From positions 1-56,356 of the IMG/VR virus record IMGVR_UViG_3300046534_001186: 56,356 nt of DNA; one strand, given 5' to 3'. Source of the DNA: a virus. The translations under genes were made by a program, and so were the position numbers. The notes beneath the pieces are model-generated. The model did no database searches and was not told the DNA's origin. It worked only from the letters and a program-made list of their open reading frames with translations. Positions 1 through 56,356 of this stretch are shown here, piece after piece (positions within the stretch are counted from its first letter, which is position 1; each line of letters begins with the position of its first letter).

Positions 1-2805
1 GCATGATGCAGGAGACGCTGTCGTCTGCAATTACCGCTGACTCTACACGAGAAGCGCCCGACAGACCCCAGAAAGCTGCAGCCCCACTAACCGCGAGCCA
101 GCTAGCTATATACAATCAGATCGCTCACCACTTAGGCCAGCCCGAACTAAGGCACGTCAACAATGAGAGCGCGCTCAGGCTAGCGATCGACGCCCAGTAT
201 GAGCTGGCCACAGATCACCTACTAGAGAAGATCTCACCTAAGTTTGCTACTGAGACAGCCACGCTAGCGGATGCCGACGACAGTGCGGTTCATGGGTTTG
301 ATAACGTATTCACGATCCCGACTAACATGGTCACGCTCTCAGGCGTGTGGTCGGACGAGAACCTAGATTTTCCTGTTCTGAGGTACCTGCACGAAGACAC
401 CCAGATCTTTGTGGACGCGTTCGATCCAATTTACATACGCTACGTTAAGAAAGAAGTTGCCGAGACATCGTGGACGCCCACGTTCAAGCAGGCGCTAGCC
501 GCGCACATTGCTACGCGGCTATCGGGTGCGTTCGCTGCAGAAAGACTAGAGTACCTGTCCGGCATGATGCAGGAGACGCTGTCGTCTGCAATTACCGCTG
601 ACTCTACACGAGAAGCGCCCGACAGACCCCAGAAAGCTGCAGCCCCACTAACCGCGAGCCAGCTAGCTATATACAATCAGATCGCTCATCATTTAGGCCA
701 GCCTGAACTAAGGCACGTCAACAATGAGAGCGCGCTCAGGCTAGCGATCGACGCCCAGTATGGGCTGGCTACGGATCACCTACTAGAGAAGATCTCACCC
801 AAGTTTGCCACTGAGACCGCCACGCTAGCGGACGCGGCGGACAGTACCGTGCACGGGTTCGACAATGTATTCACGATCCCGACTAACATGGTCACGCTCT
901 TAGGCGTGTGGTCGGACGAGAACCTAGATTTTCCTGTTCTGAGATACCTACACGAAGACACCCAGATCTTCGTGGACGCGTTCGATCCCATCTATATACG
1001 CTACGTTAAGAAAGAAGTTGCCGAGACAGCGTGGACGCCTACGTTCAAGCAGGCGCTAGCCGCGCACATTGCTACACGGCTATCGGGTGCGTTCGCTGCA
1101 GAAAGACTAGAGTACCTGTCCGGCATGATGCAGGAGACGCTGTCGTCTGCGATCACCGCTGACTCCACACGAGAAGCGCCCGACAGGCCTCAGAAAGCCG
1201 CAGCTCCGTTAACCGCGAGCCAGCTAGCTATATACAATCAGATCGCTCATCACTTAGGCCAGCCCGAACTAAGGCACGTCAACAATGAAAGCGCGCTCAG
1301 GTTAGCGATCGACGCCCAGTATGAGCTGGCCACAGACCACCTATTGGAAAAGATCTCACCTAAGTTTGCCACTGAGACAGCCACGCTAGCGGACGCGGCG
1401 GACAGTGCGGTTCATGGGTTTGATAACGTATTTACGATCCCGACTAACATGGTCACACTTCTAGGCGTGTGGTCGGACGAAAATCTAGACTTTCCCGTTC
1501 TGAGGTACTTACACGAAGACACAGAGATCTTCGTGGACGCGTTCGACCCCATCTACATACGCTACGTCAAGAAAGAAGTAGCCGAGACAGCGTGGACGCC
1601 TACGTTCAAGCAGGCGCTAGCCGCGCACATTGCTACACGGCTATCGGGTGCGTTCGCTGCAGAAAGACTAGAGTACCTGTCCGGCATGATGCAGGAGACG
1701 CTGTCGTCTGCGATCACCGCTGACTCCACACGAGAAGCGCCCGACAGGCCTCAGAAAGCTGCAGCCCCACTAACCGCGAGCCAGCTAGTTATTTACAATC
1801 AGATCGCTCATCACTTAGGCCAGCCCGAACTAAGGCACGTCAACAATGAAAGCGCGCTCAGGTTAGCGATCGACGCCCAGTACGATCTGGCCACCGACTA
1901 TCTGCTGGAAAAGATCTCACCCAGGTTTGCTACCGAGACAACTACGCTAGCCGACGCCGGCGACAGTGCCGTGCACGCGTTCGATAACGTGTTCACGACC
2001 CCTGCCAACATGGTCACACTCTTAGGCGTGTGGTCGGACGAGAACCTAGACTTTCCCGTTCTGCGATATTTGCACGAAGACACAGAGATCTTTGTAGACG
2101 CGTTCGATCCCATCTATATACGCTACATCAAGAATGAAGTGGTCGAGACGGCGTGGACGCCTACGTTCAAGCAGGCGCTAGCCGCGTACATTGCTACACG
2201 GCTATCGGGTGCGTTCGCTGCAGAAAGACTAGAGTACCTGTCCGGCATGATGCAGGAGACGCTGTCGTCTGCGATCACCGCTGACTCTACCCGGGAAGCG
2301 CCGGTCAGGCCTCAGAAAGCCGCAGCGCCTTTGTCTGCGGAAAAGCTGGCTATATACAACCAGATCGCCCAGTCACTCGGCCAGAAAGAGCTGCGCCACG
2401 TTAACGACGAAAGTGAGCTGCGGCTAGCTATCGACAGTCACTACGCGATCATCAGAGATCAGCTACTCGAAACCATTAAGCCAAGATTTGCCACGACATT
2501 CGCTGTGCTCACAGACTCAGCCGACAGCTCCGTGCACGCTTTCGATAACGTGTTCACGCTGCCTACCGGCCTAGTCACGCTAGTCGGGGTGTTCTCTGAC
2601 ATCGAGCTAGACCAGCCGGTGACAAGATACCTGCACGAAGACACTGAGCTGTACGTTGCTAACTACCCGACTGTCTACTTAAGGTACATTCAGAACGAAA
2701 TCGCAGAAAGCGCATGGACGGCCACCTACAAACTGGCTTTGTCCGCTAAAATAGCTGCTCGCTTGGCGCCAAGGTTTGCGTTAAAGAATGAAGACCCGTC
2801 GAGCC
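1..2805 (+). repeat. 561-bp in-frame tandem repeat, five units
   Basis: The string GCATGATGCAGGAGACGCTG recurs at 1, 562, 1123, 1684 and 2245, giving an exact 561-bp (187-codon) period. Units 1 to 4 differ mostly by scattered synonymous changes. The fifth keeps the junction but has diverged downstream, for example YNQIAQSLGQKELRH. High identity in the middle with divergence outside points to recent amplification or gene conversion. Confidence 0.97.
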
Positions 2806-3545
2806 CCAGCTACGCCTCTGCAGTCAAGTACTTAATGGCTTCTTTTGAGAACGAAGTCGTACGTGCCATGCAGGACGCCATGGTGGCAGACTCTATGATA
2901 GAGCCCCAGACGCGGCCAATAAAGGCCACTAGGGTTCTAGACGACGAGTACAGGGCTCTCTACAACAAAGCACTACAGATCCTCGGTCTCCCTCAACTGA
3001 CCAGCAACACCGACGAGTCGGCGCGCAAGGTGGCGCTCGACTACGCCATAGACAATAAAGCAGTCGAAACCGTGTTCGAGTTAATCTCGTGGGGGTTCCT
3101 GTACAAGCGTTTAAAACTCAGTGCCAGCGTATCGGAGATCCCGAGCTTCGGGTTTCAGTACGCGTTCGATGTGCCGGCGGATTTCATTCGGATAGATAGC
3201 GTCTCAGCCGACGAGTACTTCCGGCACCCTCAGGATTACACCAGAGAGGGCGACTTCTTCTACGCAGATGTGAAGGACCTGTACATTAGATACCTCTCAA
3301 ACGCTCAGGTAACCACCCCCGCCGTGTGGCCCGTCTATATTCACAATCTTGTTGCGGCGGAGCTGGCTCGCAACTGCTCAGGCGTGCTAGACGCCGACAG
3401 AGACAACGCTCGCATAATGTACCAAGAGTACAAAGATGAGGCCTACAACACTGACGCTCAGCGTAACCCACCTCAGGTCATAACCACCGGCAGTTGGGTC
3501 GGATCTAGAGCCAGTGGAACAACCCGACGCAACGGAAGGCCGTAG
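1..3545 (+). CDS. Tail tubular protein A, C-terminal part of a tandem-repeat form (partial at left edge)
   Basis: This is the end of a T7 gp11-type tail tubular protein A, which forms the ring between portal and nozzle. The frame is open through position 1 and continues, via the genome junction, the gene that starts at 54301. Five tandem copies of a gp11-like domain with an exact 187-residue period start at positions 1, 562, 1123, 1684 and 2245. Each copy carries YNQIAHHLGQPELRHV, HGFDNVFTIPTNMV, RYLHEDT and YIRYVKKEV or a close variant. A sixth, divergent domain (YNKALQILGLPQL, then IPSFGFQYAFDVPADF and YIRYLSNAQ) ends in SWVGSRASGTTRRNGRP, a normal-looking gp11 C-terminus. Typical gp11 proteins are about 200 residues, so this fusion is highly unusual. 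The next gene, tail tubular protein B, follows after 2 bp. Family assignment is confident; the total copy number is not known. Confidence 0.85.
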   Translation, partial: MMQETLSSAITADSTREAPDRPQKAAAPLTASQLAIYNQIAHHLGQPELRHVNNESALRLAIDAQYELATDHLLEKISPKFATETATLADADDSAVHGFDNVFTIPTNMVTLSGVWSDENLDFPVLRYLHEDTQIFVDAFDPIYIRYVKKEVAETSWTPTFKQALAAHIATRLSGAFAAERLEYLSGMMQETLSSAITADSTREAPDRPQKAAAPLTASQLAIYNQIAHHLGQPELRHVNNESALRLAIDAQYGLATDHLLEKISPKFATETATLADAADSTVHGFDNVFTIPTNMVTLLGVWSDENLDFPVLRYLHEDTQIFVDAFDPIYIRYVKKEVAETAWTPTFKQALAAHIATRLSGAFAAERLEYLSGMMQETLSSAITADSTREAPDRPQKAAAPLTASQLAIYNQIAHHLGQPELRHVNNESALRLAIDAQYELATDHLLEKISPKFATETATLADAADSAVHGFDNVFTIPTNMVTLLGVWSDENLDFPVLRYLHEDTEIFVDAFDPIYIRYVKKEVAETAWTPTFKQALAAHIATRLSGAFAAERLEYLSGMMQETLSSAITADSTREAPDRPQKAAAPLTASQLVIYNQIAHHLGQPELRHVNNESALRLAIDAQYDLATDYLLEKISPRFATETTTLADAGDSAVHAFDNVFTTPANMVTLLGVWSDENLDFPVLRYLHEDTEIFVDAFDPIYIRYIKNEVVETAWTPTFKQALAAYIATRLSGAFAAERLEYLSGMMQETLSSAITADSTREAPVRPQKAAAPLSAEKLAIYNQIAQSLGQKELRHVNDESELRLAIDSHYAIIRDQLLETIKPRFATTFAVLTDSADSSVHAFDNVFTLPTGLVTLVGVFSDIELDQPVTRYLHEDTELYVANYPTVYLRYIQNEIAESAWTATYKLALSAKIAARLAPRFALKNEDPSSPSYASAVKYLMASFENEVVRAMQDAMVADSMIEPQTRPIKATRVLDDEYRALYNKALQILGLPQLTSNTDESARKVALDYAIDNKAVETVFELISWGFLYKRLKLSASVSEIPSFGFQYAFDVPADFIRIDSVSADEYFRHPQDYTREGDFFYADVKDLYIRYLSNAQVTTPAVWPVYIHNLVAAELARNCSGVLDADRDNARIMYQEYKDEAYNTDAQRNPPQVITTGSWVGSRASGTTRRNGRP

Positions 3546-3547
3546 AT

Positions 3548-6500
3548 ATGTCCCGCACTCTTTACAACAAATTCAACCGAGGCGAGGTCGATGAGAAAGT
3601 CATGGCTCGCGACGACGTTGAAAGAATAGTCAACTCAGGCTCGCTAGTGGAAAACTTTACTCCGCTTAGAGCCGGTCCGATGCAGTACCGGCCCGGCTTC
3701 GAGTTCTCAGAGGCAGCCAAGCCCAACGAGTCGTACTACCTGATCCCATTTGTGGACGACGGGGAGAACCCCACTTTTCTTGAGCTGTCCCAGAGCGCGG
3801 CTAATCCCAGCGTAGAAACAGTCAGATTTATAGTCAACGATGCAGTGGCCACGGCCACTGCCACTGACGACACGCTTGCTAACGGCAGCTTCACCGATAA
3901 CATCGGCAGCTGGACGGCAGACCATGACGGGGCCGGAGCTGCGGCGTGGGACGCGGGGGGTAGAGCGAAACTAACTGGCGCCACCGCAAACGGTGCGTGG
4001 GGAAGACTCTACCAAACCGTGACCCAGTCTGCCGGCGAGAGAAGCATCAGGGTAGTGGTGGACAGCACCCCGATCCTAGTTCAAATAGGGACTGACGGCT
4101 CTCAAAGTTCTGACATATTTCAAGACGTACTGGGCTTAGGGATACACGTGCTCACCTTTACGCCGACCGACGATTACACAATTACGCTGTCTAATGACAA
4201 GCCGTACGCGGGCTACGTGTCCTTTTGCGACCATCTGGCCGCAGGGGCGATTGAGCTGTCCGGATCCATAGTCCTAGACACCACTACCACCGCTGGCACC
4301 CTGCAGTCGATACGGTACACGCAGGTCAATGACGTGTGCTTTATCACGGACGGGGCGTACATCACGGAGAGGCGGTCGTACCCGTTCTGGCTAATTAAGC
4401 GACGCGGGCTAAAGTCTTGGAGCTTTGAACTGCCCGAGCAACTAGACGGCCCGTTCGGTCCAATTAATATCACTGGCGTCACGCTGGCTGTGACTGCCAC
4501 TACTGGTGACACCACTCTGACTGCCAGCAGCGACTTCTTTAATGACACTGCCACTGACTACCGAGACCAGTATCAGATCGCTCACGGCGAGACGGCGGGG
4601 GTGTGCGAGATAACTTCGGTCACTAATAAAACTACTGCTCTCGTAAGAGTGCTGCGTGCGTTCGGTGCCACCACGGCTACAGCCGACTGGAATAAAGGGG
4701 AGCTGGGGATCACCACTCCTGGGCCTACGGCGTCTGAGATATTCGATGGCCGTCTTTGGTTAGCGGGGGGCGCTCGGCTTTGGGGGTCAGTGTCAGACAG
4801 ATACACCTCGTTCGACACCAGTCTGGACGGCAACTCCGCTGCAGTGTCAAAAACTCTTGGATTTGGACCAGTTCAAAACGTGTCTTGGCTTAGGGGGGGA
4901 GACATCCTGCTCATGGGGCTAAGCTCCGAGGAGGTGGAGGTTAACTCCAACGCGGACCAAGACGCTCTTAACGCGAATAACGCTCGGGTACGCAGGGCCA
5001 CTAATAAAGGCTCTGCCCGAGTAAGGCCTGAGGTCGTAGACAAGGTGGTCTACTTTGTTCAACGCGGGCTAAAGAAAATATTCGCACTTAGCGGGCTCCA
5101 GGGGGAGCAAGTGTCTGCCCAAGACACCACGATCCTGCACCCCAACATCACTAGCCCGGGCGTGCAGCGTATGGTGTACTCGAGCGAGCCCGAGCCCCGC
5201 ATGTATATTTTGCTAACGGATGGCAGCCTCAGGGTATTGCTATTTGACGAGGCGGAGGATGTCATCGCTTGGTCCCGAATCACAGTGGCAGGAGGAGGAG
5301 TAATTAAAGATATCGCTGCTTCCCCTACAACTGACGAAGACGCGGTAATGATAATAGTCGAGCGTGGCGGGGTAGCGTACATCGAGCGCCTCGCCAAGTA
5401 CTCAGAGTCGCTGGGTGGGCTCTCCTCTAGGCACTACGACAGCCATGTGGCGTTCGATGCGCCGGGTGGCACCCTAACGGGACTAGCGCACCTAGACGGA
5501 GTGCTGTGCCACGTCTGGGCGGACGGAGTGGAGAGACAGACAGTGACCCCCTCGTCCGGATCGGCCACTCTCGCGCAGTCAGGGTACGCCAAAGTTGTGA
5601 TAGGCATTCGACACACCGCTAAGTGGAAAAGCAACAAGCTGTCTCGTTATGTCGATAAGTCGGTCTTAAACTACCGCAAGCGAGTCGTGCAGATGGGGCT
5701 GGTCATGAGGTCCGTTGCGCTCCGTACCTTAAAGTACGGCGCGGACGAGCAGCACCTTAGCAGTATGCCGGAAACGGACCAAGGCAGGGCTAGGGCTCCA
5801 ACTGACGAGCCCATACCTTCTATAGTTGGGACAATCGTGGGTGCGACGGATGGAGCTATCAGCGTCCAAGAGATGCGGCTATTCGCTGGCACTGACAAGA
5901 CGTACCTAGTGGCTGCGTGTGACACCCTTGTGTCCGCCCCTAGCGCGCAGAGAATGCAGTTCTTGGCGTACTTAGACGGGTACATGTATAACGTGGGCGG
6001 CACTGACGTCAGTAATGGGAACCTCAAGGAGTTGTGGCGGTACGAGGTAGCCTCGGGTGCATACGACCAAATGGCCCCCGCCCCGAACATAGCAGTCGAG
6101 CACTCCGTGTGCGCCGGCGAAGGTAAGTTCATGGTGATGTCAGCGAGCGGCGGGTTTCAAGTGTACAACGTCTCGACCGACGCGTGGCTCGCATCCCCCG
6201 CCCAGCCGACTGCCGCTAGGAAAGAGGCAGCACTTGCCTACTACGATGGCAAGGTCTACTACTACGGAGGTAACAACGGGGGAGCGTCGAGCAACACTTG
6301 GGGGATATACGATGTGGGCGCCGACAGCTGGGACGAGACCGCGTATAGCGGCAGCCCCGAAACTAAAAGATCCCATTGCGCGGCAGCTCCTCAGTCGGGT
6401 GTCGGCGCAGGCAAAATCTATTTTTTTGGGGGACTCACTGGGGCCACCACTGACACTCGCAAGATGGAGATATACGACATTGGATCCAACACCTTCGGGA

Positions 6501-7918
6501 CTGCAATCGACGCCACTATTCCGACTAAGGCGTACGGCAAACTAGAAGCCACTGACGACGGAGAGTTGTACCAATGGGGCGGAGGTCCTCGCGTTGGCGC
6601 AGGGGATGCTTTGGTGTGGAAATTTAATATCACTGCGGGCACTTGGAGCGTAGTTAACGACGGCACAGGGGTCCGCCCTTTGATTAGTAGCTACCAGTTC
6701 GGGCTGGCGTTCGACCCAATCAACGGGGACCTCTACAAAAACGGGGGGTTGTCTATCGAATACATGAGCTCCATTAACCCCGACGGCAATCCTAACGGGT
6801 GGACCAACGACCTGTGGAAGTACAGCATCTCTACAAATTTGTGGACCGAACTTAAAAAAGAGGGGGAGCTAGCCCCTATATCTGGGGCCATCCGGATTGC
6901 GGACGTAACAGACCCTGCGGCGATGGTGTCGCTCTCTGCTTTAAACATTAGCTCAGGCACGGACGACTGCTTGGGGTACGGGGTCGTGACTGACCAAGGG
7001 TACGCCTACCTGAGAACTCGCGAGCACGACGACAGCACGCTCAACCGAGGGCTGGCCGTAGTCAACATACTGGATCCCTCCAATCCCACACAAGAGGCGT
7101 ACCTTGCCGGCTCCGTGCTCTCTGACGCGGGGAAGTGTATTGCTAAGCAAGGGGGCTTCCTATTCTTGGTGTCGTTAGTGACTGACGGGGTATTGGAAGT
7201 GGTAAAGGTAGACCCTCCCAGTGCTCCGGTACTAGAGGCGGTGACGCTGGACCTGGTTACCGTGTCCTCGAATGCTAACCCCGACTCAATTGCGATTAAC
7301 CAGTACTACCTGTATGTGCCTTGGGAAGGGAATCTGCATATCGTAGACATATCAGACCCTCGCAACATTTCGCTGAGCTCTAGGTTCAGCCTTCCAGTGG
7401 CAGCGGCTTCGCAGTGCCAGGTGGAGCGGAGCACGCTGTATGTGCTTGACGTTGTGGCGGGGACCGTGCTGGCGTACGATGTGGCCGACCCAGTCGCCCC
7501 AGTGCTGATAGGATTTATAACTGACACGGCGCTGGTGGGGGCTACAGACTTCATAGCGACCTCGCCTTGGCTCTACGTTTCGACGGCCACCACGGTGGTG
7601 GTGTTAGATTTCAGGGACCCCAGCGTTCCCCTAAAGTTTGCCGCGTATGCAGGTTTTACGGATTTGAACACTTTGACCATGGCGACCCCTAATGTATTAT
7701 TCGGGGGCAGCTCTACAGGAAAGGGGACCGTGTACGCAGCAGACCAAAGGTCGTGGGCGTATGTGGACTACGACGAGATGAGCTTTGCGTTCGACGGAAC
7801 GTACGACACGGACTCCAGAGTGCTTCTACAGGCCACGGGACCCGCCACTATAACCGCATTAACTTTAGAGATTGAAGATGTTGATCATGCGACCAATGGT
7901 AGCGAAAGATCTAACTGA
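3548..7918 (+). CDS. Tail tubular protein B (gp12-like nozzle) with inserted beta-propeller repeats
   Basis: The N-terminus (LYNKFNRGEVDEKVMARDDV, then a G-S-L-V-E-N-F segment and YRPGFEF) is the signature of podovirus tail tubular protein B, the nozzle protein that docks on gp11. The family is usually about 800 residues; this one is 1456. Residues to about 740 look like the ordinary nozzle, including KSNKLSRYVDKSVLNYRKR. Residues about 745-1100 contain Kelch-like repeats (YNVGGTDVSNGN, VYYYGGNNGG, IYFFGGLTG, LYQWGGG). Residues about 1120-1405 contain LVIVD-like repeats (LAVVNILDPSNP, LHIVDISDPRN, VLAYDVADPVAP, VVVLDFRDPSVP). The nozzle resumes at DEMSFAFDGTYDTDSR and ends with a typical ITALTLEIED. 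The insert is probably an exposed adhesin or receptor-binding module; that role is inferred. Confidence 0.85.
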   Translation: MSRTLYNKFNRGEVDEKVMARDDVERIVNSGSLVENFTPLRAGPMQYRPGFEFSEAAKPNESYYLIPFVDDGENPTFLELSQSAANPSVETVRFIVNDAVATATATDDTLANGSFTDNIGSWTADHDGAGAAAWDAGGRAKLTGATANGAWGRLYQTVTQSAGERSIRVVVDSTPILVQIGTDGSQSSDIFQDVLGLGIHVLTFTPTDDYTITLSNDKPYAGYVSFCDHLAAGAIELSGSIVLDTTTTAGTLQSIRYTQVNDVCFITDGAYITERRSYPFWLIKRRGLKSWSFELPEQLDGPFGPINITGVTLAVTATTGDTTLTASSDFFNDTATDYRDQYQIAHGETAGVCEITSVTNKTTALVRVLRAFGATTATADWNKGELGITTPGPTASEIFDGRLWLAGGARLWGSVSDRYTSFDTSLDGNSAAVSKTLGFGPVQNVSWLRGGDILLMGLSSEEVEVNSNADQDALNANNARVRRATNKGSARVRPEVVDKVVYFVQRGLKKIFALSGLQGEQVSAQDTTILHPNITSPGVQRMVYSSEPEPRMYILLTDGSLRVLLFDEAEDVIAWSRITVAGGGVIKDIAASPTTDEDAVMIIVERGGVAYIERLAKYSESLGGLSSRHYDSHVAFDAPGGTLTGLAHLDGVLCHVWADGVERQTVTPSSGSATLAQSGYAKVVIGIRHTAKWKSNKLSRYVDKSVLNYRKRVVQMGLVMRSVALRTLKYGADEQHLSSMPETDQGRARAPTDEPIPSIVGTIVGATDGAISVQEMRLFAGTDKTYLVAACDTLVSAPSAQRMQFLAYLDGYMYNVGGTDVSNGNLKELWRYEVASGAYDQMAPAPNIAVEHSVCAGEGKFMVMSASGGFQVYNVSTDAWLASPAQPTAARKEAALAYYDGKVYYYGGNNGGASSNTWGIYDVGADSWDETAYSGSPETKRSHCAAAPQSGVGAGKIYFFGGLTGATTDTRKMEIYDIGSNTFGTAIDATIPTKAYGKLEATDDGELYQWGGGPRVGAGDALVWKFNITAGTWSVVNDGTGVRPLISSYQFGLAFDPINGDLYKNGGLSIEYMSSINPDGNPNGWTNDLWKYSISTNLWTELKKEGELAPISGAIRIADVTDPAAMVSLSALNISSGTDDCLGYGVVTDQGYAYLRTREHDDSTLNRGLAVVNILDPSNPTQEAYLAGSVLSDAGKCIAKQGGFLFLVSLVTDGVLEVVKVDPPSAPVLEAVTLDLVTVSSNANPDSIAINQYYLYVPWEGNLHIVDISDPRNISLSSRFSLPVAAASQCQVERSTLYVLDVVAGTVLAYDVADPVAPVLIGFITDTALVGATDFIATSPWLYVSTATTVVVLDFRDPSVPLKFAAYAGFTDLNTLTMATPNVLFGGSSTGKGTVYAADQRSWAYVDYDEMSFAFDGTYDTDSRVLLQATGPATITALTLEIEDVDHATNGSERSN

Positions 7919-8246
7919 TCTTGAGCTACCCACCTTTGGTAGAACAATACGAGGCCAAGTAGCCGAGGTAGATGGTAAAACTGTGGCGGCCACAGGAGTG
8001 CTGCACACCTCTCCTTTCTACGCGTTTGCGCACATAACCCCTGCAATGAGGGACCACCCGCGCGCGATAGTTAGAGTAATCCAAGGGTTTGAAGAATTTT
8101 TAACAATGTACTACGGCACGGTGTACGCGATCGCCGATGTGAACGAGAATAATGCCCCCGCCGTGCTGGAAAGAGCAGGCTTCAAGCATTACCAAACTAG
8201 CTTAGAAGGGGAGGTGTACCGATGGCAGCAGCCGCAATACCACTAG
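7878..8246 (+). CDS. GNAT-fold internal-virion-like protein
   Basis: This is a small protein of about 122 residues that looks like a GNAT acyltransferase fold. It starts MLIMRPMVAKDLTDL, has a central strand segment (VAATGVLHTSPFYAF) and ends with NAPAVLERAGFKHYQ, the usual GNAT C-terminal pattern. Small GNAT-like proteins are common between the nozzle gene and the internal virion genes of podoviruses, the position of T7 gp13. I do not see a convincing acetyl-CoA P-loop, so catalysis is uncertain. It overlaps the end of tail tubular protein B by 41 bases in another frame. Starts at 7872 (TTG), 7878 and 7887 are all possible; 7878 was chosen because MLI-MRP resembles family starts. Confidence 0.65.
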   Translation: MLIMRPMVAKDLTDLELPTFGRTIRGQVAEVDGKTVAATGVLHTSPFYAFAHITPAMRDHPRAIVRVIQGFEEFLTMYYGTVYAIADVNENNAPAVLERAGFKHYQTSLEGEVYRWQQPQYH

Positions 8247-16400: not shown

Positions 16401-16877
16401 ACCAAGGCGGCTAGGCAGCTAATCGCAGTTCCGTTTGCGCTAGCGGCGGCCACGCAGTGGCTAGTAGCTGACTTCCCAGACGAAGACGACGAGGAGGGGC
16501 TGCTGTCTTGGTCCGCGAGAACGTACCTGGGGTTTATGTCAGGCACGATCCCGATGTCGGGGATGTTCGTGTCGGAGATGAGAGGGTTTGGCGCCCAGTC
16601 CATGACCACATCAGTCGCGGGCAAACTGGCGCAGGGACTCACTCTGCCGGGGCGAGCGTTCGGAGAAGACTCAGAAATGACCGCCTCCGAGGGGCTCTAC
16701 GAGTTGCTCACTATCACTGGAACGGTCATGCCGGTGCCGGGGCTAGGCAACGTGACGAGGATGCTGCAGTACTATAATTCTCGTCAAGATGGGAACGAAG
16801 ACGAGATTGAGGATATACTAGGCTGGACGCAGGAGACCTACCAGGCTCTAGTGGAAGGCTCGGATAAAAATCGGTAA
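10455..16877 (+). CDS. Giant internal virion / polyvalent ejection protein with ART-like and HExxH domains
   Basis: This 2140-residue protein occupies the position of T7 gp16 (ejected core protein) and starts with GTG overlapping the previous stop. Visible parts: residues about 630-755 resemble the ADP-ribosyltransferase domain of phage polyvalent proteins (VYYHKSKNDFSEF, NGIYFASDPYYAGMYP, VYPTYLKKGARI, FIVFDPSQIRSVNAAFDP). Residues about 915-1020 resemble a polyvalent-protein zincin (STFLHEAAHLFLE with an HEAAH motif, then HELFARTFEQYLRTGDAP and FVEFARWLSRVYQ). Long charged helices follow, and a hydrophobic segment lies near residue 1990 (VPFALAAATQWLV). The ART part is markedly AT-richer than its flanks. 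The protein is probably injected with the DNA, so both domains could act on host targets early. Enzyme activity is not shown by the sequence. Confidence 0.75.
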   Translation: MPITPDQIRQMKQFDTDREAENLQSKLNASIGRDPSKDAEVLTLSNETQLPFDVVERRLPEIRKRGQSDPYDAKGLIASHPRTAQYLSSGRNALAAAQDIPAMRDLEDELWGKRKGTPFLKNTVLAMGERTNDLTGNLVELVGNLYSEVSAFDPTIEFGEDGMSFNFIDDSPRDPNAFQRVGKAVSEGSLGYVPTFTWENLKGDLSVANLAGYVVETGAQSMVDMAAMLTTMPAYLASRTEEIAESRVENIEGRDNVTLADLAASVPTAVLVSLIDRFSAKGILGLADDVPVGTGFGFAAKEVGKKGVLEGGTEFIQEQIEYAGEVLGTDVDFDAMVSLDRGLAGAVAGGPMGATIRTLSLPANALAARAEKEVSVRVESAVEQVSIANIITKIKGMKLSQSAPAEQRKFLEGLDGDHQLYVTPEEVLAAAEEGLPVPKAMLDQATNNPSTDVTIKVSEFGADVVSNEQLLARLETHMKMSPNSMTRAEMDAKDSSKIGDMMARAKQDSELRSEADAIHASVTDQLVATKRMTRAQAAKQAQLIPAYVTTSVERLRERGIDISVTEMYEKMNFTVEAATAPTTRKSGPEVLAQSQAEGYEGTDPGEAQEWVDGVAKFGAEGMTTEARMSRAAEMGFDADTVYYHKSKNDFSEFSRDVESGWTNDSKTNGIYFASDPYYAGMYPGTTVYPTYLKKGARIKDVSSNLELSDQHKETRKAEQDGFTAVRITDNSLGEFIVFDPSQIRSVNAAFDPDASSSPNILAQGPNSGDGQTLKQSVDLNEITDSMQELDLTVPLDKQGVDPKIIARIEKHVGEDMLAVLVENANADIADLTGSELHQFMARILSEGSLPYYTDSVGDPDIDAVRYLRRMGLFVAARDVSDDAALYQEGESGPTVKGELEFFSDDSRIIKLFETSDESTFLHEAAHLFLETEKQLAAEFGLGENQQSILDFLELDSFDSIPVEKHELFARTFEQYLRTGDAPSPTLRDAFVEFARWLSRVYQSALALNAPLTDEAKGMFDRLLATQKEIEDSKTEPVWAQFFKDIKSAGMTEAQWAKYQAQVKRKSERAEGSLYDKLTKQYMSRRTTEWNQERKPLVEMAMERLEDSPIYGAIKAMREVPLDSEALKPFLAGNPKAAGRFIALRKADGSGMDPRLYVEQFGFESVEAMVNAITNAPALKVAATAEAQRLMIKKYGDILNDGTLEKEVRDSLHNAEQAKLLQMELAAMARRRRTKEPLDLKALRSDAKKIISQMRAADIRPDKFYRSEVRAAVAAGKAKTAEEAYQAKLQQLANHYLYKEALAARRNAAKYRKHMFGVLNRTYRTSEVAKEYVQEMKQLVRMYNMKTPDERDAVAAKFFTFMSGQLEAGVPIDLKDHNLILLDHRNRLGGSIDFSMPLVSDLTMDQLRSAYEQLVHLRHMGGVEAQKEKAELVEKRQTLVDALQTKISKAANKRQYKTEKQLERASAPKSLFYKLPSLRNLIRDLDNGDAGAFAKLLWTPIYTAENKKLSIHKEWYDELNNLMTGPDGKEFDLSSINDNKESRVTIPGTGLSMTARERVMLALYWGEEYSRDAVIDGYRKAPTGEMELDEEGNSTKIKKKGEKTVSVENVEEMLENLTDQQIEIVNRIWQFHDYISAPLFESEYKRGGVAPEKIPAVPFEIRGKPMRGGHMRLYYHGQPTMELAAEATLISTNNVTPSKHGSVYERLGSGGKKVSMNMDNIFRNITEAIHKVAYTDAARELNQIYAHRSTREAITDAMGQGFEQALFENIRGLVTDMKEPQGDKYIAAASRWLRTSASSMYLSFGVRNIVQQFGTIITAVDELPGASYAVAVAEFASDWDGNTAKVNELSPQMASRDVNLNREHSEMLARVDTGTRFEKYVQVANRYGFKPHVFIDGMIAYPLWLKVYNNAIEQHGDLVRAASEADVSVAETVGSGLDINIGKFFRSNESEFIKLMGLFGSWFNGVIFQRAYKSTEGGSKVVSTKAARQLIAVPFALAAATQWLVADFPDEDDEEGLLSWSARTYLGFMSGTIPMSGMFVSEMRGFGAQSMTTSVAGKLAQGLTLPGRAFGEDSEMTASEGLYELLTITGTVMPVPGLGNVTRMLQYYNSRQDGNEDEIEDILGWTQETYQALVEGSDKNR

Positions 16878-31045: not shown

Positions 31046-32011
31046 ATGGCTACAAATATATTAACACCAGTAGGCCGCTTGGTCGGGGGCTCGTTATCTA
31101 ACCCCCAGACTGAGGACTACTACGGGGCGCCCCTCACCTACAAGAAGGGCGCCAATGTGGGCCAGCCGAGAGTCGAGTACTTCATCGCGCTGGCAGTCTC
31201 TAAGAATGAGCCTGGCGCCAACGAGCTGTTCGCCGTTATGAATCAAGAGGCGCAGACCGGCTTTCACAACAACGAGAGCCAGCGTGCGGACTTCGCGTGG
31301 AAGTTCCTAGACGGCGATGTTGCTGTCGATAAGAACCAGAAGCCGTACAGCTTGCGTGAAGGTTACGCAGGTCACTACGTGTTCCGGTTCACAACGGGAT
31401 TCGCACCTAGCTGCTTCGCGAACAACGGCACCGGCCAGATCAATGAGATCCCTGCCGAGGAAGTCAAGACTGGGTACTTCGTCAGAGTGTCTGGCTCCAT
31501 AGCCGCCAACGGGGACTCGGGCAAGCCCGGTCTGTACATGAATCTCAACATGGTAGAGCGCGTGGGCTACGGTGAAGAGATCCGCACTGGCCCTAACCCC
31601 AACGACGTGTTCGGACAGCAAGCCCAGTTGCCACAAGGGGCCTCGAGTACACCGTCGGCACCTCAAGGCCAGTTCGAGCACATGGCTCAGAACCAGCAGC
31701 CGCAGGGCAACCAGTACCCGCAGGGCAACCAGCAGCCGCAGGGCAACCAGTACCCGCAGGGCAACCAGCAGCCGCAGGGCAACCAGCAGCCGCAGGGCAA
31801 CCAGCAGCCTCAAGGTAACCAGCAGCCGCAGGGCAACCAGCAGCCTCAAGGTAACCAGCAGCCGCAGGGCAACCAGCAGCCGCAGGCTATGCAGCAGCCG
31901 CAGGGCAACCAGCAGCCGCAGGCTATGCAGGGTATGCAGGGTATGCAGGGCAACCAGAACGGCGTGCCGACTCAGCCTAATCAAAACTTTAATCAGCCTC
32001 CTAGCTACTAA
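31046..32011 (+). CDS. DUF2815 ssDNA-binding-like protein with long Gln/Pro repeat tail
   Basis: Residues 1-190 fit DUF2815 (TPVGRLVGGSLSNPQTEDYY, then GQPRVEYFIALAV, VSGSIAANGDSGKPGLYMNL), predicted single-stranded DNA-binding proteins of the OB-fold type. Residues about 215-305 are a repetitive tail with period six (N-Q-Q-P-Q-G, about 14 units). It ends QPPSY, in place of the acidic tip of bacterial SSB. The stop overlaps the DNA polymerase start (TAATG). It probably coats ssDNA for the polymerase. The disordered repeat tail is unusual for this family. Confidence 0.8.
   Translation: MATNILTPVGRLVGGSLSNPQTEDYYGAPLTYKKGANVGQPRVEYFIALAVSKNEPGANELFAVMNQEAQTGFHNNESQRADFAWKFLDGDVAVDKNQKPYSLREGYAGHYVFRFTTGFAPSCFANNGTGQINEIPAEEVKTGYFVRVSGSIAANGDSGKPGLYMNLNMVERVGYGEEIRTGPNPNDVFGQQAQLPQGASSTPSAPQGQFEHMAQNQQPQGNQYPQGNQQPQGNQYPQGNQQPQGNQQPQGNQQPQGNQQPQGNQQPQGNQQPQGNQQPQAMQQPQGNQQPQAMQGMQGMQGNQNGVPTQPNQNFNQPPSY
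31695..31950 (+). repeat. 18-bp in-frame repeats encoding (N-Q-Q/Y-P-Q-G)n
   Basis: About 14 copies of AACCAGCAGCCGCAGGGC or close variants lie within the DUF2815 gene. Variant units have TAC (Tyr), CCTCAAGGT, or GCTATG in place of GGCAAC. The variety of synonymous forms suggests stepwise slippage or unequal recombination. Confidence 0.95.
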
Positions 32012-45512: not shown

Positions 45513-45858
45513 GGCCCGAATAAACTCTGCCTTTACTCGGGCCTAGCATTCGGGCCACCTATATCTTGTTGATATCTAAAGAGAATCCGTAAAAGTGGCC
45601 CGAAGGCCCGAATAAACGCACTCTCAATCCCACACAGCTGGCACAGCTAGTGCTGCTGCTGGTGCTGGTGCGCGCTGCTGCGCTGCGCTGCTGGTGGTGC
45701 TGCGCAGCAGCGCTTGGTTTTGTTGATGGGTGGTTTTGGCTCTAATGGTGGCCTTTATGCCTCTTTATACCCCTACTAGACTAATAAGGGTATATAAAAG
45801 AAGGGGTTAGGGGCCTCGGGTCTTGTGGCCCGAATAGGTGGCCCGAATGGGCCCGAAT
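45513..45858. repeat. GGCCCGAAT iteron-like motifs
   Basis: Exact GGCCCGAAT at 45513, 45605, 45827, 45840 and 45850; the inverse ATTCGGGCC at 45548; near-copy GGCCCGAAG at 45597. They cluster in the gene-free region between the leftward accessory operon and terS, with an AT-rich patch (45760-45805, including TATATAAAAG) between them. The arrangement is compatible with a replication origin or a regulator-binding array. Confidence 0.7.
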
Positions 45859-46205
45859 GAGAATAGAGGGGTATCGGGCCGACCCCCTGTGGTTTACACG
45901 CGCTGCTGCGTGTTGCTGCGTCCTGCTGCTGGTGCTGGGGGAGCGCTAAGCACGCAGGGGGTCTTAAAACGTGGGGCTGCTGCGCGTGCGTGCTGCTGCG
46001 CTGCTATCAATAGCCTGTGGTTGCTGCGCGCTGCTGCTGGTGCTGGTGCTGCTGGTGCTGCTGGTGCTGCTGGTGCTGCGCTGCTGGTGCTGCGCGCTGC
46101 GCTGCCATCAATAACTTGTGGTTGCTGCGGGTGCGTGCTGCGCTGCGGGATCTGCTGCGGGTGCGTGCTGCTGCGCTGCGCTGCGGGATTTGCTGCGCGC
46201 TGAGG
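45640..46205. repeat. Gene-free CTG/GCTGGTG-rich low-complexity array
   Basis: Dense GCTGCTG, GCTGGTG and TGCTGCG repeats. About ten GCTGGTG heptamers all point the same way, and one is a full GCTGGTGG (45690-45697). A longer direct repeat, GCTGCYATCAATARCYTGTG plus GTTGCTGCG, occurs at about 45999 and 46101. The open frames here are low-complexity and lack ribosome-binding sites, so I do not call genes. Confidence 0.75.
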
Positions 46206-47189: not shown

Positions 47190-47379
47190 GAATCCTAAAG
47201 CAGATGTGCTCGAAGTCCGAGTTGATACTCGCGGTGAGAAAAGCACCACGGTGTACGTCTTGATCCAACCCGAAGGCGGCGTGGCGCACTGGCGCAGCAG
47301 GTCTGCGAAGGGCACGCTGGAGCAGGTAGACCTCGACGTAGAGGACGTCCTCGAGTGGGAAAAAAGAGGCCCCTCTTGA
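47179..47379 (+). CDS. Unknown small protein between terminase subunits
   Basis: This 66-residue beta-rich protein (VLEVRVDTRGEKSTTVYVLI) has an acidic C-terminal helix (LEQVDLDVEDVLEWEKRG). It overlaps the terL start. Small proteins at this place are common in podoviruses and uncharacterised. Confidence 0.55.
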   Translation: MQIENPKADVLEVRVDTRGEKSTTVYVLIQPEGGVAHWRSRSAKGTLEQVDLDVEDVLEWEKRGPS

Positions 47380-49360: not shown

Positions 49361-50959
49361 ATGTACACCAACGGCACAATGGACTCCATAAAAGTCTGCG
49401 CGTTAGCGGACAACCTGTTCACCAAGCAAGACGGGGTCCTACCCTTGTGGCAGACTCTAGCGGAAAACTTCTATCCAGAGCGGGCCGACTTTCGTTTCGC
49501 CCGGTCTTTGGGTAACGAGATGGCGGAGGCCACAGTGGACTCGTACCCGATCTTGGCTAGGCGAGACCTAGGGAACTCTTTCCACTCCATGCTGCGAGAC
49601 GGCAATTGGTTTGAGGTTACAGCCGGCGCGGATACTCGGCTAGACCATGACGGTAAGCTGTGGCTAGAGTGGGCGACTAAACGACAGCGCAGGGCTATGG
49701 ACGATCGCAATGCTAATTTTGAAAGATCTGTTAAGAACGGGGATATGGATTTTGCTGCTTTCGGTAACACTGTACTCTCCATCGAACCTAACAAAGCACG
49801 CAACGGGATCGTTTACCGCAGTTGGCATCTACGCGACTGCGCTTGGGAAGACGACGAAAAGGGCCAAGTTGAGACGGTCGCCCGGAAGTGGAGCCCGTCG
49901 CTCCACGAGTACGTCACTACTTTCGGAATTGACAAACTCCCAGCTCGCCTACGCGAAAAGTATAAAAAAACTCCTTTTGCGACGACGCCGCTTTACCATG
50001 TGCTGATGCCCGTAGCCTTATCGGGAAACCAGCAGTACCTCGAGCAGGGATACAAGTACGCCTCTTACTTCGTGCACACTGGCGGGGAGAAGGAGTTGGT
50101 CGAAGACAAGGCTATAAACTATAAATACTACGTGGTGCCGAGATTTCAAACGATCTCAGGCAGCCCGTATGCGTACAGCCCAGCCACAATCTGTGCTCTG
50201 CCTGACGCAAGAACACTGCAGGCAATGACCTACACGCTGCTGGAAGCGGCGGAACGGTACGCCCGCCCGCCTATGGTCGCAACGCAAAAGGTAATAACCG
50301 GCGTTGTGGACTTACGCCCTAACGGCATAACTTGGGTGGACAACGCGTACGACGAACGTCTCGGCGCGGCATTGAAGTCTATAGACCAAAACAAAGGGGG
50401 ATACCCCATCGGTGCCAGCGAGCGTTCTCGCATATACGATACAATCTCCCACGCTTTCTACGGCGACACTCTGAATCTGCCTTTAGGCGACAAAGAAATG
50501 ACGGCCTTTGAAGTTCAGGAGCGCATGAAGCAATACCGACGAGCCAACTTACCTTTATTCTCTCCTATGGAGAAAGACTACAACGGCCAAGTCTGTGAGA
50601 CGACTTTTGATCTCATCATGATGATGGGCGGGTTCGGGTCGATTCAAGACATCCCCCAGTCACTGGGTGACGGCGTGGAGTTCAAGTACAAGTCCCCTCT
50701 GTCTCGAGACGAAGAGGAAGAGAAGGTGTCTCAGTTCTCCCAGACCGCCGCTCTGCTTAGAGAGGCAGCGGAGTTCGACCAGAACGCAGCGGATAACATT
50801 GATTTTGATGTGGCCGTACGCGACGCGATCGAGGGTAACAACACTCCGACCAAGTGGTTCAGGCCGCAAGAAGAGATCCAAGAGGTTCGCGAAGCTAGGA
50901 TGGCGCAGCAGGCAGCTATGCAAGCCACGGAAGCAGCGCAAGCGGGCGAGGCCGCGTGA
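49361..50959 (+). CDS. Portal protein (head-to-tail connector)
   Basis: This 532-residue protein matches the podovirus head-to-tail connecting protein family. LPLWQTLAENFYPERADFRF near the start, then TVDSYPILARRDLGNSFHSM, GNTVLSIEPNKARNGIVYRS and SGSPYAYSPATICALPDARTL are all characteristic. The C-terminus is Gln/Ala-rich. It forms the dodecameric portal ring through which DNA is packaged and to which gp11 binds. Overlaps the next gene by 4 bases. Confidence 0.9.
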   Translation: MYTNGTMDSIKVCALADNLFTKQDGVLPLWQTLAENFYPERADFRFARSLGNEMAEATVDSYPILARRDLGNSFHSMLRDGNWFEVTAGADTRLDHDGKLWLEWATKRQRRAMDDRNANFERSVKNGDMDFAAFGNTVLSIEPNKARNGIVYRSWHLRDCAWEDDEKGQVETVARKWSPSLHEYVTTFGIDKLPARLREKYKKTPFATTPLYHVLMPVALSGNQQYLEQGYKYASYFVHTGGEKELVEDKAINYKYYVVPRFQTISGSPYAYSPATICALPDARTLQAMTYTLLEAAERYARPPMVATQKVITGVVDLRPNGITWVDNAYDERLGAALKSIDQNKGGYPIGASERSRIYDTISHAFYGDTLNLPLGDKEMTAFEVQERMKQYRRANLPLFSPMEKDYNGQVCETTFDLIMMMGGFGSIQDIPQSLGDGVEFKYKSPLSRDEEEEKVSQFSQTAALLREAAEFDQNAADNIDFDVAVRDAIEGNNTPTKWFRPQEEIQEVREARMAQQAAMQATEAAQAGEAA

Positions 50960-51246
50960 GCTTAGTGCCGGAAGCATTCAAGTCGGCGTTGCTCAACGCG
51001 CAGGAGGTGTACGCGCTCCAGTCTTTAGAGGAGGGCACTGCGGACGTGTACGCTCAGCGGCTAGCGCTTAGCGCAATTTTGAACAAACTGTGCCGCGTGT
51101 ACGATCAGCACTATGTGCCAGGCGACAGAGAATCGACCACGTTTCTACTTGGAAGGGCGTACCCTGGCCAAGAAATAATTAAGCATCTAAGGATTAACCC
51201 CACACAACTTAAAGCACTCGAAGAGGCAAACAAGAATGGAAATTGA
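50956..51246 (+). CDS. Unknown protein between portal and scaffold
   Basis: This 96-residue helical protein starts with GTG overlapping the portal stop. It contains AQRLALSAILNKLCRVYDQH and GQEIIKHLRINPTQLKALEE. No known family. It overlaps the scaffold gene by 11 bases, suggesting coupled synthesis with head proteins. Confidence 0.55.
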   Translation: MSLVPEAFKSALLNAQEVYALQSLEEGTADVYAQRLALSAILNKLCRVYDQHYVPGDRESTTFLLGRAYPGQEIIKHLRINPTQLKALEEANKNGN

Positions 51247-52153
51247 AACCCCACCAGTTGAGGCACCCCCAGCAGTAGTCCCACCCGAGGGAACTCCACC
51301 GGCAGTAGTCCCACCCGAGGGAACTCCACCGGCAGTAGTCCCACCCGAGGGAACACCTTGGTATCACACCGATGCAGACGATTGGCGAGAGCAGATCGCA
51401 GGCAAAGACGAGACCAAGCTGAACTTATTGAAGCGAGTCACCGACCCATCCCAGCTGTTCGACAATTATTTTGAGGGTCAAAAAACTCTCAGTCAGCGGG
51501 TGGAGGCAGCAGCAGAGACGTTGCCGGAGAATCCTACGGACGAGCAGCTGCAGGCTTACCGTGAGAAAAACGGCGTGCCTAACGAGGCAACAGGATACGA
51601 GCTTAAGCTCTCGGACGGATTAGTGCTCAGTGACGAGGACCGCGCTGAGTTTCAGCCCGTCTTCGAAGTCATGCACGGGATGAACCTCCCCTCCGACCAG
51701 GTCAGCGCCGTCACCGACAGTTGGCTAAAAGCTCAGAACGGCATTGTGGCCAAAGAGGAAGCCCGCGACAGCGTGGATGCGGCGGACTGTACCAAAGCGC
51801 TGCAGGACGCATGGAAAGGCGACTTCGAAACAAACAAAGGCTTGATCAATGGGATGATCTCGTCTCACCTTCCCGAGGATTCAGTTGACGCGTTCATGAA
51901 TGCCCGACTGTCAGATGGCACTGCGCTGTTTAACAACCCTGGGATAGTAGCGGCCTTGAGTAACATGGCTAGGACCATCAACCCTGCGGCCACGTTAGTG
52001 CCGTCAGGCAAAGACGCGCTGACTAGTTTAGCTACGCGTCGTGCCGAGCTAGAGGGCCAGATGGGAGACGACGACTGGCATAAGAACGCCGCCGGCCAAA
52101 AAGAGTACCAAGAGATAGTAACGGCGCAGGAAGTATTCTCTTCTAGACAGTAG
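51236..52153 (+). CDS. Scaffolding protein
   Basis: This 305-residue acidic helical protein lies directly upstream of the major capsid gene, the standard scaffold position. After a Pro-rich repeat (three copies of P-P-A-V-V-P-P-E-G-T), it shows YHTDADDWREQIAGKDETKL, LFDNYFEGQKTLSQRVE and YREKNGVPNEATGYELKL, phrases found in podovirus scaffold proteins. The C-terminal helix (YQEIVTAQEVFSSRQ) should contact capsid. Confidence 0.8.
   Translation: MEIETPPVEAPPAVVPPEGTPPAVVPPEGTPPAVVPPEGTPWYHTDADDWREQIAGKDETKLNLLKRVTDPSQLFDNYFEGQKTLSQRVEAAAETLPENPTDEQLQAYREKNGVPNEATGYELKLSDGLVLSDEDRAEFQPVFEVMHGMNLPSDQVSAVTDSWLKAQNGIVAKEEARDSVDAADCTKALQDAWKGDFETNKGLINGMISSHLPEDSVDAFMNARLSDGTALFNNPGIVAALSNMARTINPAATLVPSGKDALTSLATRRAELEGQMGDDDWHKNAAGQKEYQEIVTAQEVFSSRQ
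51262..51352 (+). repeat. 30-bp in-frame repeat in scaffold gene
   Basis: Three near-identical 30-bp copies (CCGGCAGTAGTCCCACCCGA then GGGAACTCCA) encode P-P-A-V-V-P-P-E-G-T. Confidence 0.95.
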
Positions 52154-52329: not shown

Positions 52330-53160
52330 ATGTCCGAAACGGCCTTTCAGATAATGTACCGGCAGGAGATGATCGCAGGGTTCGAAAAGCGTCAATCGCT
52401 TTCTCGTAGAACCACTACCACGGCAGCCGACATAAACGGCAACCAGGCAGTGTTCCTTGTGGCAGACTCAGGCGGTGCAAGCGCGGTAACACGCGGTGTT
52501 AACGGCGACCTTCCAACGCGCCCAGACAACATGAACCAGTACTCAGCCACGTTGCAAGAATGGCACGACGTTCCTGAACGCACTAGATTCAACATCTACG
52601 CGTCTCAAGGGGACGGTCGCAAGCTCATGCAACAGACCTGTATGTCTGTTATTAATCGCAAGATTGATCAAGACATCCACACGGCATTGGGTGCAGCTAC
52701 TCAGACTTGGGGCGCAGCTTCGGCGGCCACCCTTATTCTAGTAACCATCGCTAAGACTAAGCTCGCGAATGCTTTCGCGGATATGGATGCTCCTGTCTTT
52801 GCTTTGATCACGCCAGCGTTCCACGGCTACTTGATGGGCTTGAAAGAGTTCACCAGTGCGGACTATGTCTCGCAGCCTGGCTTCGACGGCATGCCTAAAG
52901 ACAAGGCATTTTCTTGGTTTGGCGTTAACTGGATCGTTGACCCCGGACTCCCAGGCGTGGGCACAGCTTCCGCCACCTGCTTCATGTACTCCAAGAACGC
53001 GATCGGTCACGCTTGTGACACTGAGAACTTGGCGACTGCCGTCGGATACGACAGCAAGAACGACAAGTCTTGGGCTCGCTGCTCTACGTTCATGGGCAGT
53101 AAACTCTTGCAGGATTCGGGTGTGATCAAGATGCCACACAACGACTCTGCATTGTCATAA
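52330..53160 (+). CDS. Major capsid protein
   Basis: This 276-residue protein follows the scaffold gene and has a strong ribosome-binding site (AAGGAG). Starting FQIMYRQEMIAGFEKRQSLS, it continues ITVF-type strands and YASQGDGRKLMQQTCMSVIN, KTKLANAFADMDAPVFALIT, ending NLATAVGYDSKNDKSWARCS. This resembles HK97-fold capsid proteins of small podoviruses. Length is short but within range. Own promoter likely at 52281-52308; terminated after the next gene by the hairpin at 53756-53795, which would allow high-level expression. Confidence 0.82.
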   Translation: MSETAFQIMYRQEMIAGFEKRQSLSRRTTTTAADINGNQAVFLVADSGGASAVTRGVNGDLPTRPDNMNQYSATLQEWHDVPERTRFNIYASQGDGRKLMQQTCMSVINRKIDQDIHTALGAATQTWGAASAATLILVTIAKTKLANAFADMDAPVFALITPAFHGYLMGLKEFTSADYVSQPGFDGMPKDKAFSWFGVNWIVDPGLPGVGTASATCFMYSKNAIGHACDTENLATAVGYDSKNDKSWARCSTFMGSKLLQDSGVIKMPHNDSALS

Positions 53161-54300: not shown

Positions 54301-56356
54301 ATGGCCGTCACCAGATTATCGCTCTATAACAATGCGCTCTATATTCTCGGTGAGCGGCGACTAGTAACTGAATTTGAGGACCGCGAGCCTCGCCGTGTTT
54401 TAGATGAGATAGCTAATCTAAACGCGTACGAGGTGGTCCTCGAACTCGTTAAGCCTAGGTTCGCAGTTACTAGCGCCAAACTTAGCAACCCCTCCGCGTC
54501 TAGCGTCCACGGGGTTGATAAGGTGTACGCTTTCGCGTGGGACTACATCTCCACCCTAGGAGAGGCAGGCCTACACGGCGCGAACGCTTCGTTCTTCTCT
54601 GACGAAAATTTTCAAAATCCAATAAATCGCTACATCATTGAGGGCCGCACGGTCGCTTGCGATGTAGAAACTAACATCTGGATGCGGTACATAAGCAAGA
54701 CCCCCGATCTGGACGTGTGGACGCCGATGTTCGGCAAGCTGGTAGCCACCTACCTAGCCAAGGAAGCTGCCAGCCGGATAAATCCTAACCGAATCGAGTA
54801 CGCGGAGCAGCAGTTCGCTCAGGCGTTAGCGATCAGCATTCAGTACGAGTCGGTTAAAGAAAACCCAATAATTCCGCAGAAAGCTGCAGCCGACTTAACC
54901 GCAGACCAGCTGGTGATATACAACCAAGTCGCCCACGCTTTAGGCAAAAACGAGTTCAGGCACGTGGCGGACGGGAGTTCGTTGCGCCTAGCCATAGACG
55001 CTCAATACGACCTAGCCCGCGACTTCCTGCTCGAGACTGTGAAGCCGAGATTCGCCACCACCTCTGTGACTCTGACAGACGCAGGGGACAGCACCTCGCA
55101 CACGTTCGATAATGTGTTCACGCTGCCCAGCGACTTCCTGACTTTAGTCTCGATACACTCTGACGAGAACTTAGACTTTCCAGTCGAGCGGTATTTGCAC
55201 GAGGACGATGAGATCTTCGTGGACGCGTCCACCCCGATCTACCTGCGCTACATCCAAAACGATGTGACGGAACCGACCTGGACTGCTACGTTCAAGCGTG
55301 CGTTGTCTGCGCACATCGCTACGAACCTGTGCCCCCTGTTCGCGAACGAGAGGGAACAGTCCGCGTTCGACCTGTTCGATAAAGCGCTTACCGCGACTAT
55401 GGAAGCGGACGCGTCCCGGGAGGTCCCTTACCGAGCCCAACAGGCTGCAGGGGTCCTCTCCACAGCCAAGCTGACAGTCTACAACCAGATCGCCCAGATG
55501 CTTGGCCAGCGCGAGTTGCGTCACGTCAACGACGAGAGCGAGCTACGGGTAGCCATTGACGCGGAGTACACGTTAGCAAGAAACTTCGTGCTAGAGGCGG
55601 TAAAACCTAGATTTGCCACCATCACTGCTGCACTCGCGGACGCCGATAACAGTGCGGTCCACGGGTTTGATAACGTATTTACGATCCCGACCGACCTGCT
55701 CTTGCTTTGCGGAATATGGTCGGACGAGAACCTAGACTTTCCCGTTCTGCGATATTTGCACGAAGACACAGAGATCTTCGTGGACGCGTTCGACCCCATA
55801 TACATACGCTACGTGCAGAGCGCTGTGGGGGAGGCGGAGTGGACAGCCACGTTCACTAAGGCCGTGGCCGCTCACATCGCGCATAACTTATCTTCTCGAT
55901 TTTCCCCAGAGCGAGAGCAAAACGCTCTTGCGGTACTAACCTCGGCCCTCGCTATCGCCGTGGAGGTAGACTCCACACGAGAAGCGCCCGACCGGCCTCA
56001 GAAAGCTGCAGCCCCGCTAACCGCGAGCCAGCTAGTTATTTACAATCAGATCGCTCATCATTTAGGCCAGCCCGAACTAAGGCACGTCAACAATGAGAGC
56101 GCGCTCAGGCTAGCGATCGACGCCCAGTATGAGCTGGCTACGGATCACCTACTGGAGAAGATCTCACCTAAGTTTGCTACTGAGACAGCCACGCTAGCGG
56201 ATGCCGACGACAGTGCGGTTCATGGGTTTGATAACGTATTTACGATCCCGACTAACATGGTCACGCTCTCAGGCGTGTGGTCGGACGAGAACCTAGATTT
56301 TCCTGTTCTGAGGTACCTGCACGAAGACACCCAGATCTTTGTGGACGCGTTCGATC
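54301..56356 (+). CDS. Tail tubular protein A, N-terminal part of tandem-repeat form (runs off right edge)
   Basis: The start, MAVTRLSLYNNALYILGERR, is a canonical gp11/tail tubular protein A N-terminus. Unit 1 (residues 1 to about 195) is a complete, diverged gp11 domain: VLELVKPRFAVTSAKL, INRYIIEGRTVACD, NIWMRYISKTPDLDVW. Unit 2 starts DLTADQLVIYNQVAHALGKN and unit 3 starts VLSTAKLTVYNQIAQMLGQR. Unit 4 starts LTASQLVIYNQIAHHLG at about 55990 and is cut by the edge. No stop occurs. The same frame continues in the gene at 1-3545 (equivalent codon phase). Together they make at least ten fused domains, near 1900 residues if only one partial unit is missing. Confidence 0.85.
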   Translation, partial: MAVTRLSLYNNALYILGERRLVTEFEDREPRRVLDEIANLNAYEVVLELVKPRFAVTSAKLSNPSASSVHGVDKVYAFAWDYISTLGEAGLHGANASFFSDENFQNPINRYIIEGRTVACDVETNIWMRYISKTPDLDVWTPMFGKLVATYLAKEAASRINPNRIEYAEQQFAQALAISIQYESVKENPIIPQKAAADLTADQLVIYNQVAHALGKNEFRHVADGSSLRLAIDAQYDLARDFLLETVKPRFATTSVTLTDAGDSTSHTFDNVFTLPSDFLTLVSIHSDENLDFPVERYLHEDDEIFVDASTPIYLRYIQNDVTEPTWTATFKRALSAHIATNLCPLFANEREQSAFDLFDKALTATMEADASREVPYRAQQAAGVLSTAKLTVYNQIAQMLGQRELRHVNDESELRVAIDAEYTLARNFVLEAVKPRFATITAALADADNSAVHGFDNVFTIPTDLLLLCGIWSDENLDFPVLRYLHEDTEIFVDAFDPIYIRYVQSAVGEAEWTATFTKAVAAHIAHNLSSRFSPEREQNALAVLTSALAIAVEVDSTREAPDRPQKAAAPLTASQLVIYNQIAHHLGQPELRHVNNESALRLAIDAQYELATDHLLEKISPKFATETATLADADDSAVHGFDNVFTIPTNMVTLSGVWSDENLDFPVLRYLHEDTQIFVDAFD
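54889..56356 (+). repeat. Tandem gp11-domain repeats, diverged left flank of the array
   Basis: Units of about 187 codons start near 54889, 55450 and 55975. The last matches positions 41-426 at about 97 percent by eye, while the bases corresponding to 1-38 differ, so it is a distinct unit and not a simple overlap of the window ends. Confidence 0.88.

Follow-up and report, generated by a model that had tools for sequence, protein, structure and literature searches.

At least ten fused copies of the gp11 adaptor unit in the tail tubular protein A of an uncultured bacterial virus

The window, by which we mean the whole stretch of DNA analyzed here, is a 56,356-base virus record classed as linear, and its gene set is near-complete for a short-tailed phage. 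The following genes have been assigned: the terminase large subunit (at 47355), the portal or head-to-tail connecting protein, which is expected to bind the adaptor (49361..50959, plus strand; PF12236), the major capsid protein (52330..53160, plus strand), an internal virion protein (at 8222), and a gp12-like nozzle protein, or tail tubular protein B, of 1456 aa with Kelch-like repeats (3548..7918, plus strand; phrog_376), as well as a primase, a helicase, an exonuclease, and a DNA polymerase. A 2140-aa protein encoded beside the ejection genes (10455-16877) has its sole match in phrog_9880 (2231 positions, unknown function). The Gp2.5-like single-strand DNA-binding protein has an unusual low-complexity tail, built from about 13 copies of an 18-nt repeat (31691-31950). 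CTG/TGC-rich repeats, including a 101-nt tandem pair, occupy positions 45651-46202, where there is no clear gene, and a perfect 30-nt tandem repeat of 2.8 copies (51272-51354) lies near the start of a 305-aa gene with a weak protease match.

The tail-collar protein of this uncultured bacterial virus (gp11, or tail tubular protein A) is one giant chain, in which a part that is single in other phages occurs at least ten times. An ORF of 685 aa at 54301-56355, open at the right edge of the window, holds 3.6 units, and an ORF of 1180 aa at 3-3545, the frame of which is open at the left edge, holds the end of one unit and six units more. We infer that these are two pieces of one gp11 gene, because in relatives the whole gene sits after the capsid gene and before the gp12 gene, and in the window these two genes are the syntenic neighbors of the pieces. 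An earlier sequence-only reading had placed the gene at 54301-56356, which covers the right-hand piece only, whereas the gene goes on at 1-3545. That reading had also held the gene to be polymeric, with about ten units, and this was borne out by the open frame, by repeated matches to phrog_394 (tail protein) in four stretches of the right-hand ORF (E 4.9e-59) and six of the left-hand ORF (E 3.4e-112), and by the self-identity of the left piece at a lag of 187 residues, which is 68% as against at most 10% in 200 shuffles. Both pieces repeat with a period of 561 nt. Taken by itself, each of the units tested has a match to phrog_394 (E 7e-14 to 1e-24), and the sequenced part of the chain amounts to 208 kDa.

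All units are encoded on the plus strand. Unit u1 (54301..54870) is of the N-terminal type, carries the start codon of the gene, and falls in the N clade of the tree described below; it is followed by the middle-type units u2 (54865..55428) and u3 (55426..55989) and by the first 123 aa of u4 (55987..56356), which is cut by the contig end. At the other end of the window, positions 1..56 hold the last 18 codons of the unit preceding u5, which is either u4 or a later, unassembled unit, and the middle-type units u5 (57..620), u6 (618..1181), u7 (1179..1742), u8 (1740..2300), and u9 (2301..2906) come next, the last of them having some 15 extra residues inserted ahead of its last helix. The array closes with u10 (2895..3545), a unit of the C-terminal type that carries the stop codon and, before it, a basic C-terminal tail that is conserved. 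The array gene is thus a multi-unit derivative of gp11 and its units are members of the gp11 family: gp11 adaptor chains consist of a single domain of about 190 aa, and here there are at least ten. With the two window ends joined by inference, the gene is flanked by those for the capsid and gp12, in a podovirus whose portal belongs to PF12236.

The two ends of the array join in frame, but not seamlessly, and 135 nt (modulo 561) of one unit are absent. If the cut unit is identical on both sides, the gene has ten units, 5736 nt, and 1911 aa; if not, one or more further periods of 561 nt must be added, and these values are therefore a minimum. Both contig ends recur exactly within the left piece: the opening 127 nt of the window reappear at 562-688, and its final 115 nt are identical to 312-426. 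Exact internal repeats at both contig ends are expected of an assembler that halts in near-identical repeats, which explains the cut. The overlap of 127 bases would fit an assembler whose largest word was 127. Scans with the u1-u4 and u5-u9 pieces, meant to find near-identical records that bridge the gap, found no relative.

Divergence among the units is uneven. Units u4-u8 share 88-97% DNA identity with one another and are the youngest copies, while u2 and u3 have only about 60-70% identity to other units. Since the differences between units are mostly synonymous (dN/dS 0.02-0.17), selection acts on every unit at the protein level, and the units cannot simply be copies made by the assembler.

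A complete gp11 fold was predicted by AlphaFold for each unit, with a mean pLDDT of 88.7 for a three-unit relative (L006) and 78 for six units of the window. The pTM values were 0.48 and 0.34, respectively, and the confidence between units was too low to fix their arrangement; the linkers between units, of about 14-17 residues, also have low model confidence. The best solved matches found by Foldseek are podovirus adaptors, namely those of LME-1, Carin-1, KP32 (TTPA), T7, and crAss001.

About 150 loci of relatives were collected by portal and capsid searches in IMG/VR. The complete and distinct gp11 genes among them include 49, 12, 3, and 1 genes with two, three, four, and five units, respectively (L160 being among the four-unit genes and L007 having the five), and these multi-unit genes occupy the same locus, with the capsid gene ahead of them and gp12 behind. 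Across a whole group of uncultured relatives, it is normal for gp11 to be fused in two to five copies. Single-unit gp11 was found in L086, in L154 and L155, which are contigs binned to bacterial genomes, and in the distant phage MW202898. The near relatives L004, L005, L011, L012, and L018 also end within the array, and their unit counts are incomplete. In L061 (3917-5012) the N and C units lie in two overlapping frames, which may be a real split or a frameshift or sequencing error, and in L116 (13032-14543) the two-unit gp11 has an extra N-terminal part of about 110 aa. The gp12 protein of the window is also long, with 1456 aa as against 866-896 aa in most two-unit relatives, and the Kelch-like repeats lie in the extra part. 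The length of gp12 was considered as a correlate of unit number and was rejected, because gp12 is enlarged in the window, L015 (1475 aa), L024 (1609 aa), and L160 (1597 aa) but has 877-961 aa in other phages with three or four units.

In a tree of 161 units, the C-terminal units form one group, and the N-terminal units a second, in which there are few intruders. The middle units are on the N side and have several origins, those of L027 and L028 lying inside the N group. Units u2-u9 of the window form one clade (99), so the long array grew within this lineage. A rooted tree with the single-unit genes as outgroups agrees with this picture, although its long branches are unsure.

We scored each region of a unit against N and C profiles, positive bits being N-like and negative bits C-like. 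The single-unit genes of the clade (L154, L155, and L086) have an N-like helix 1 and an N-like alpha1-alpha2 loop (loop, +11 to +20 bits), together with a C-like beta dock (-64 to -101 bits), a C-like last helix, and a C-type tail. In middle units the dock is N-like (89 to 132 bits) and the N-like loop is absent, since all 19 score at or below +2 bits there as against at least +10 bits in N units; the loops of the window's own middle units are mildly C-like (-2 to -8 bits). Helix 1 and the loop are nearer to the C unit than to the N unit of the same phage in only 12 of the 19. In the clearest cases the pattern is seen in DNA also: the 5' part of the L017 M3 unit is 74% identical to its own C unit and 46% to the N unit, the remainder being nearer to N or equal, and the first segment of L027 M2 is 65% identical to C and 58% to N, with the dock reversed. 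The distant single-unit gp11 of MW202898 has no mosaic. As judged from these sequence scores, a C-N mosaic in middle units and an N-C mosaic in the single-unit genes of the clade fit the two products that would be expected from unequal crossing-over inside an N-C gene, one being a gene of three units whose central unit is the C-N mosaic and the other a gene of one N-C unit. The same single-unit pattern would equally result if the clade's single-unit state were merely the ancestral one, from which N and C had each retained half.

The array is probably a single-chain, multi-ring adaptor barrel, in which the rings would be stacked along the tail axis. In T7 gp11, the alpha1-alpha2 loop binds the nozzle, and the (fibre) dock and the C-terminal helix bind the portal (PMC6702177); by these contact faces, the N units keep the nozzle face, the C units keep the portal face, and the middle units keep neither, as spacer rings should. 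Each unit is predicted to be one complete gp11 fold. Between nozzle and portal, twelve parallel chains would together make up at least ten stacked dodecameric rings, with every chain contributing a single unit to every ring. The N-terminal unit would then belong to the ring touching the gp12 nozzle, the C-terminal unit with its basic tail to the ring touching the portal, and the middle units to spacer rings. Copy number would shift by in-register unequal crossing-over between units, which would always leave both end faces intact, so that the tail could become longer or shorter by one ring at a time within one gene. In crAss001, five dodecameric rings of this fold are stacked over about 23 nm (PMC10172136), and at this spacing ten rings would measure about 45-46 nm. 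Several points speak against this model: AlphaFold does not fix the arrangement of the units, the C-likeness of helix 1 and the loop is confined to 12 of the 19 middle units and is mild in the loops of the window, the gp11 of MW202898 has no mosaic, the orientation is transferred from T7, where the dock and the C-terminal tail both face the portal, and the height of a ring would have to be bridged by a linker of only about 14-17 residues. Stacked rings in a longer tail, one of two outcomes offered by the sequence-only reading, are thus favored by the N, middle, and C unit types and the T7 faces, while the twelve-fold rings, their orientation, and the lengthening of the tail belong to a proposed geometry. 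The fuller claim, that a podovirus-type phage builds a tube of at least ten rings and about 45 nm from twelve parallel single chains, with the repeat number of one gene setting tail length and recombination changing it by one ring, we regard as evenly balanced.

Among the other explanations, the one that survives best, though we consider it unlikely, is that the chain is a polyprotein, cut in its linkers into individual ring monomers of several kinds, which would stack like those of crAss001, a phage which does use separate paralogous ring proteins. The length and low model confidence of the linkers would suit such cutting, and a match to phrog_458 (E 5.8e-8) makes the gene at 51236-52153 possibly protease-like; this match is weak and partial, however, the gene fits phrog_3742, an unknown family, better, and the fused two-unit genes are intact across nearly the whole group.

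Slightly less probable again is the other outcome of the sequence-only reading, that most of a 12-subunit ring is made covalently, several neighboring positions of one ring being supplied by one chain (2x6, 3x4, 4x3, and ideally 12x1 in the window). T7 gp11 is a 12-mer, a two-unit chain would suit a six-fold nozzle, and the ten units seen plus two missing would give twelve. Five does not divide twelve, however, and the gene of L007 is complete with five units. Moreover, the units of one flat ring would all meet both portal and nozzle, yet the N, middle, and C units differ conservedly in exactly those two faces, the two ends being separate conserved types and the middle units having neither the loop type of N nor the body type of C; we therefore disfavor the covalent ring.

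It is improbable that the end units alone build the adaptor ring, leaving the middle units either flexible or placed on the outside of the tail as a decoration such as an adhesin stalk. In favor of such a role, the linkers look flexible and the neighboring gp12 has gained Kelch-like repeats, but the middle units have the full gp11 fold and are under strong purifying selection, and stacking accounts more simply for an N-type face at one end of the chain and a C-type face at the other. That a few real units were multiplied by the assembler is hardly credible and, for about ten distinct units, already nearly refuted: the contig does break within the array, at the exact 115- and 127-nt repeats, but DNA differences between units reach 40%, at the low dN/dS given above, the reading frame is open throughout, and two to five units are found in independent contigs.

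If the stacked-ring model is true, it would be a third way to set the length of a phage tail, besides tape measures and separate ring genes, and the line between short-tailed and long-tailed phages would be blurred. Unit numbers of one to five and of at least ten would then make these phages a natural series for predicting and measuring tail length, and the series would show how a one-ring tail can turn into a multi-ring tail by ordinary recombination.

The array shares its fold, its sequence family, and its position between the capsid and gp12 genes with T7 gp11, KP32 tail tubular protein A, and the other phrog_394 adaptors, whose known members are single units of about 190 aa, whereas the array has at least ten. 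The sequence-only reading knew of no described podovirus with a polymeric gp11, and none was found here among isolates or solved structures; in the uncultured relatives, fused copies are normal. In INPHARED, no multi-unit gp11 was found in isolated phages with the protein of the window or of L010 as query; no fused gp11 array was found among solved structures, and no paper on a duplicated or fused tail tubular protein A was found among open-access papers. One candidate, phrog_9239 (741 aa), was rejected as a known multi-unit gp11, because its profile has one gp11 unit, with an Ig-like region after it, and just its first ~140 positions match. Q6RCF4 of Vibrio phage VP2, which has the same length of 741 aa, is an enlarged protein with one gp11 unit as judged by the extent of the match, an Ig-like domain annotation, and no array. 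The three-unit model is matched along its full length by two unnamed BFVD proteins, A0A516L4P3 (583 aa) and A0A516M5L4 (1139 aa), the second of which probably has about six units, judging by its length; multi-unit proteins are thus present in databases, where they have apparently passed unremarked. The multi-unit gp11 of uncultured relatives (IMG/VR L006, L007, L010, L014, L017, and L160) is found at the same locus, with N, middle, and C types in one frame, and differs from the array in having two to five units.

The tail barrel R1-R5 of crAss001 (Crassvirales; PMC10172136) is alike in that several paralogous ring domains are encoded per genome, where the array has at least ten in one gene. 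Its dodecameric gp11-type rings are stacked from portal to nozzle, with end rings specialized by position and copy variation by paralogy, whereas stacking in the array is deduced from the unit types. The rings of crAss001 come from four separate genes that are 14.9-30.6% identical, one of them used twice; here, at least ten units are fused in one gene and their count varies inside it, and the portal and capsid of the array phage are of a different lineage from those of crAss001. What is already known is thus the gp11 adaptor family and the stacked rings that crassviruses build from separate genes, and what appears to be new, as judged from the isolates, solved structures, and open-access papers searched, is a fused gp11 array of variable unit number.
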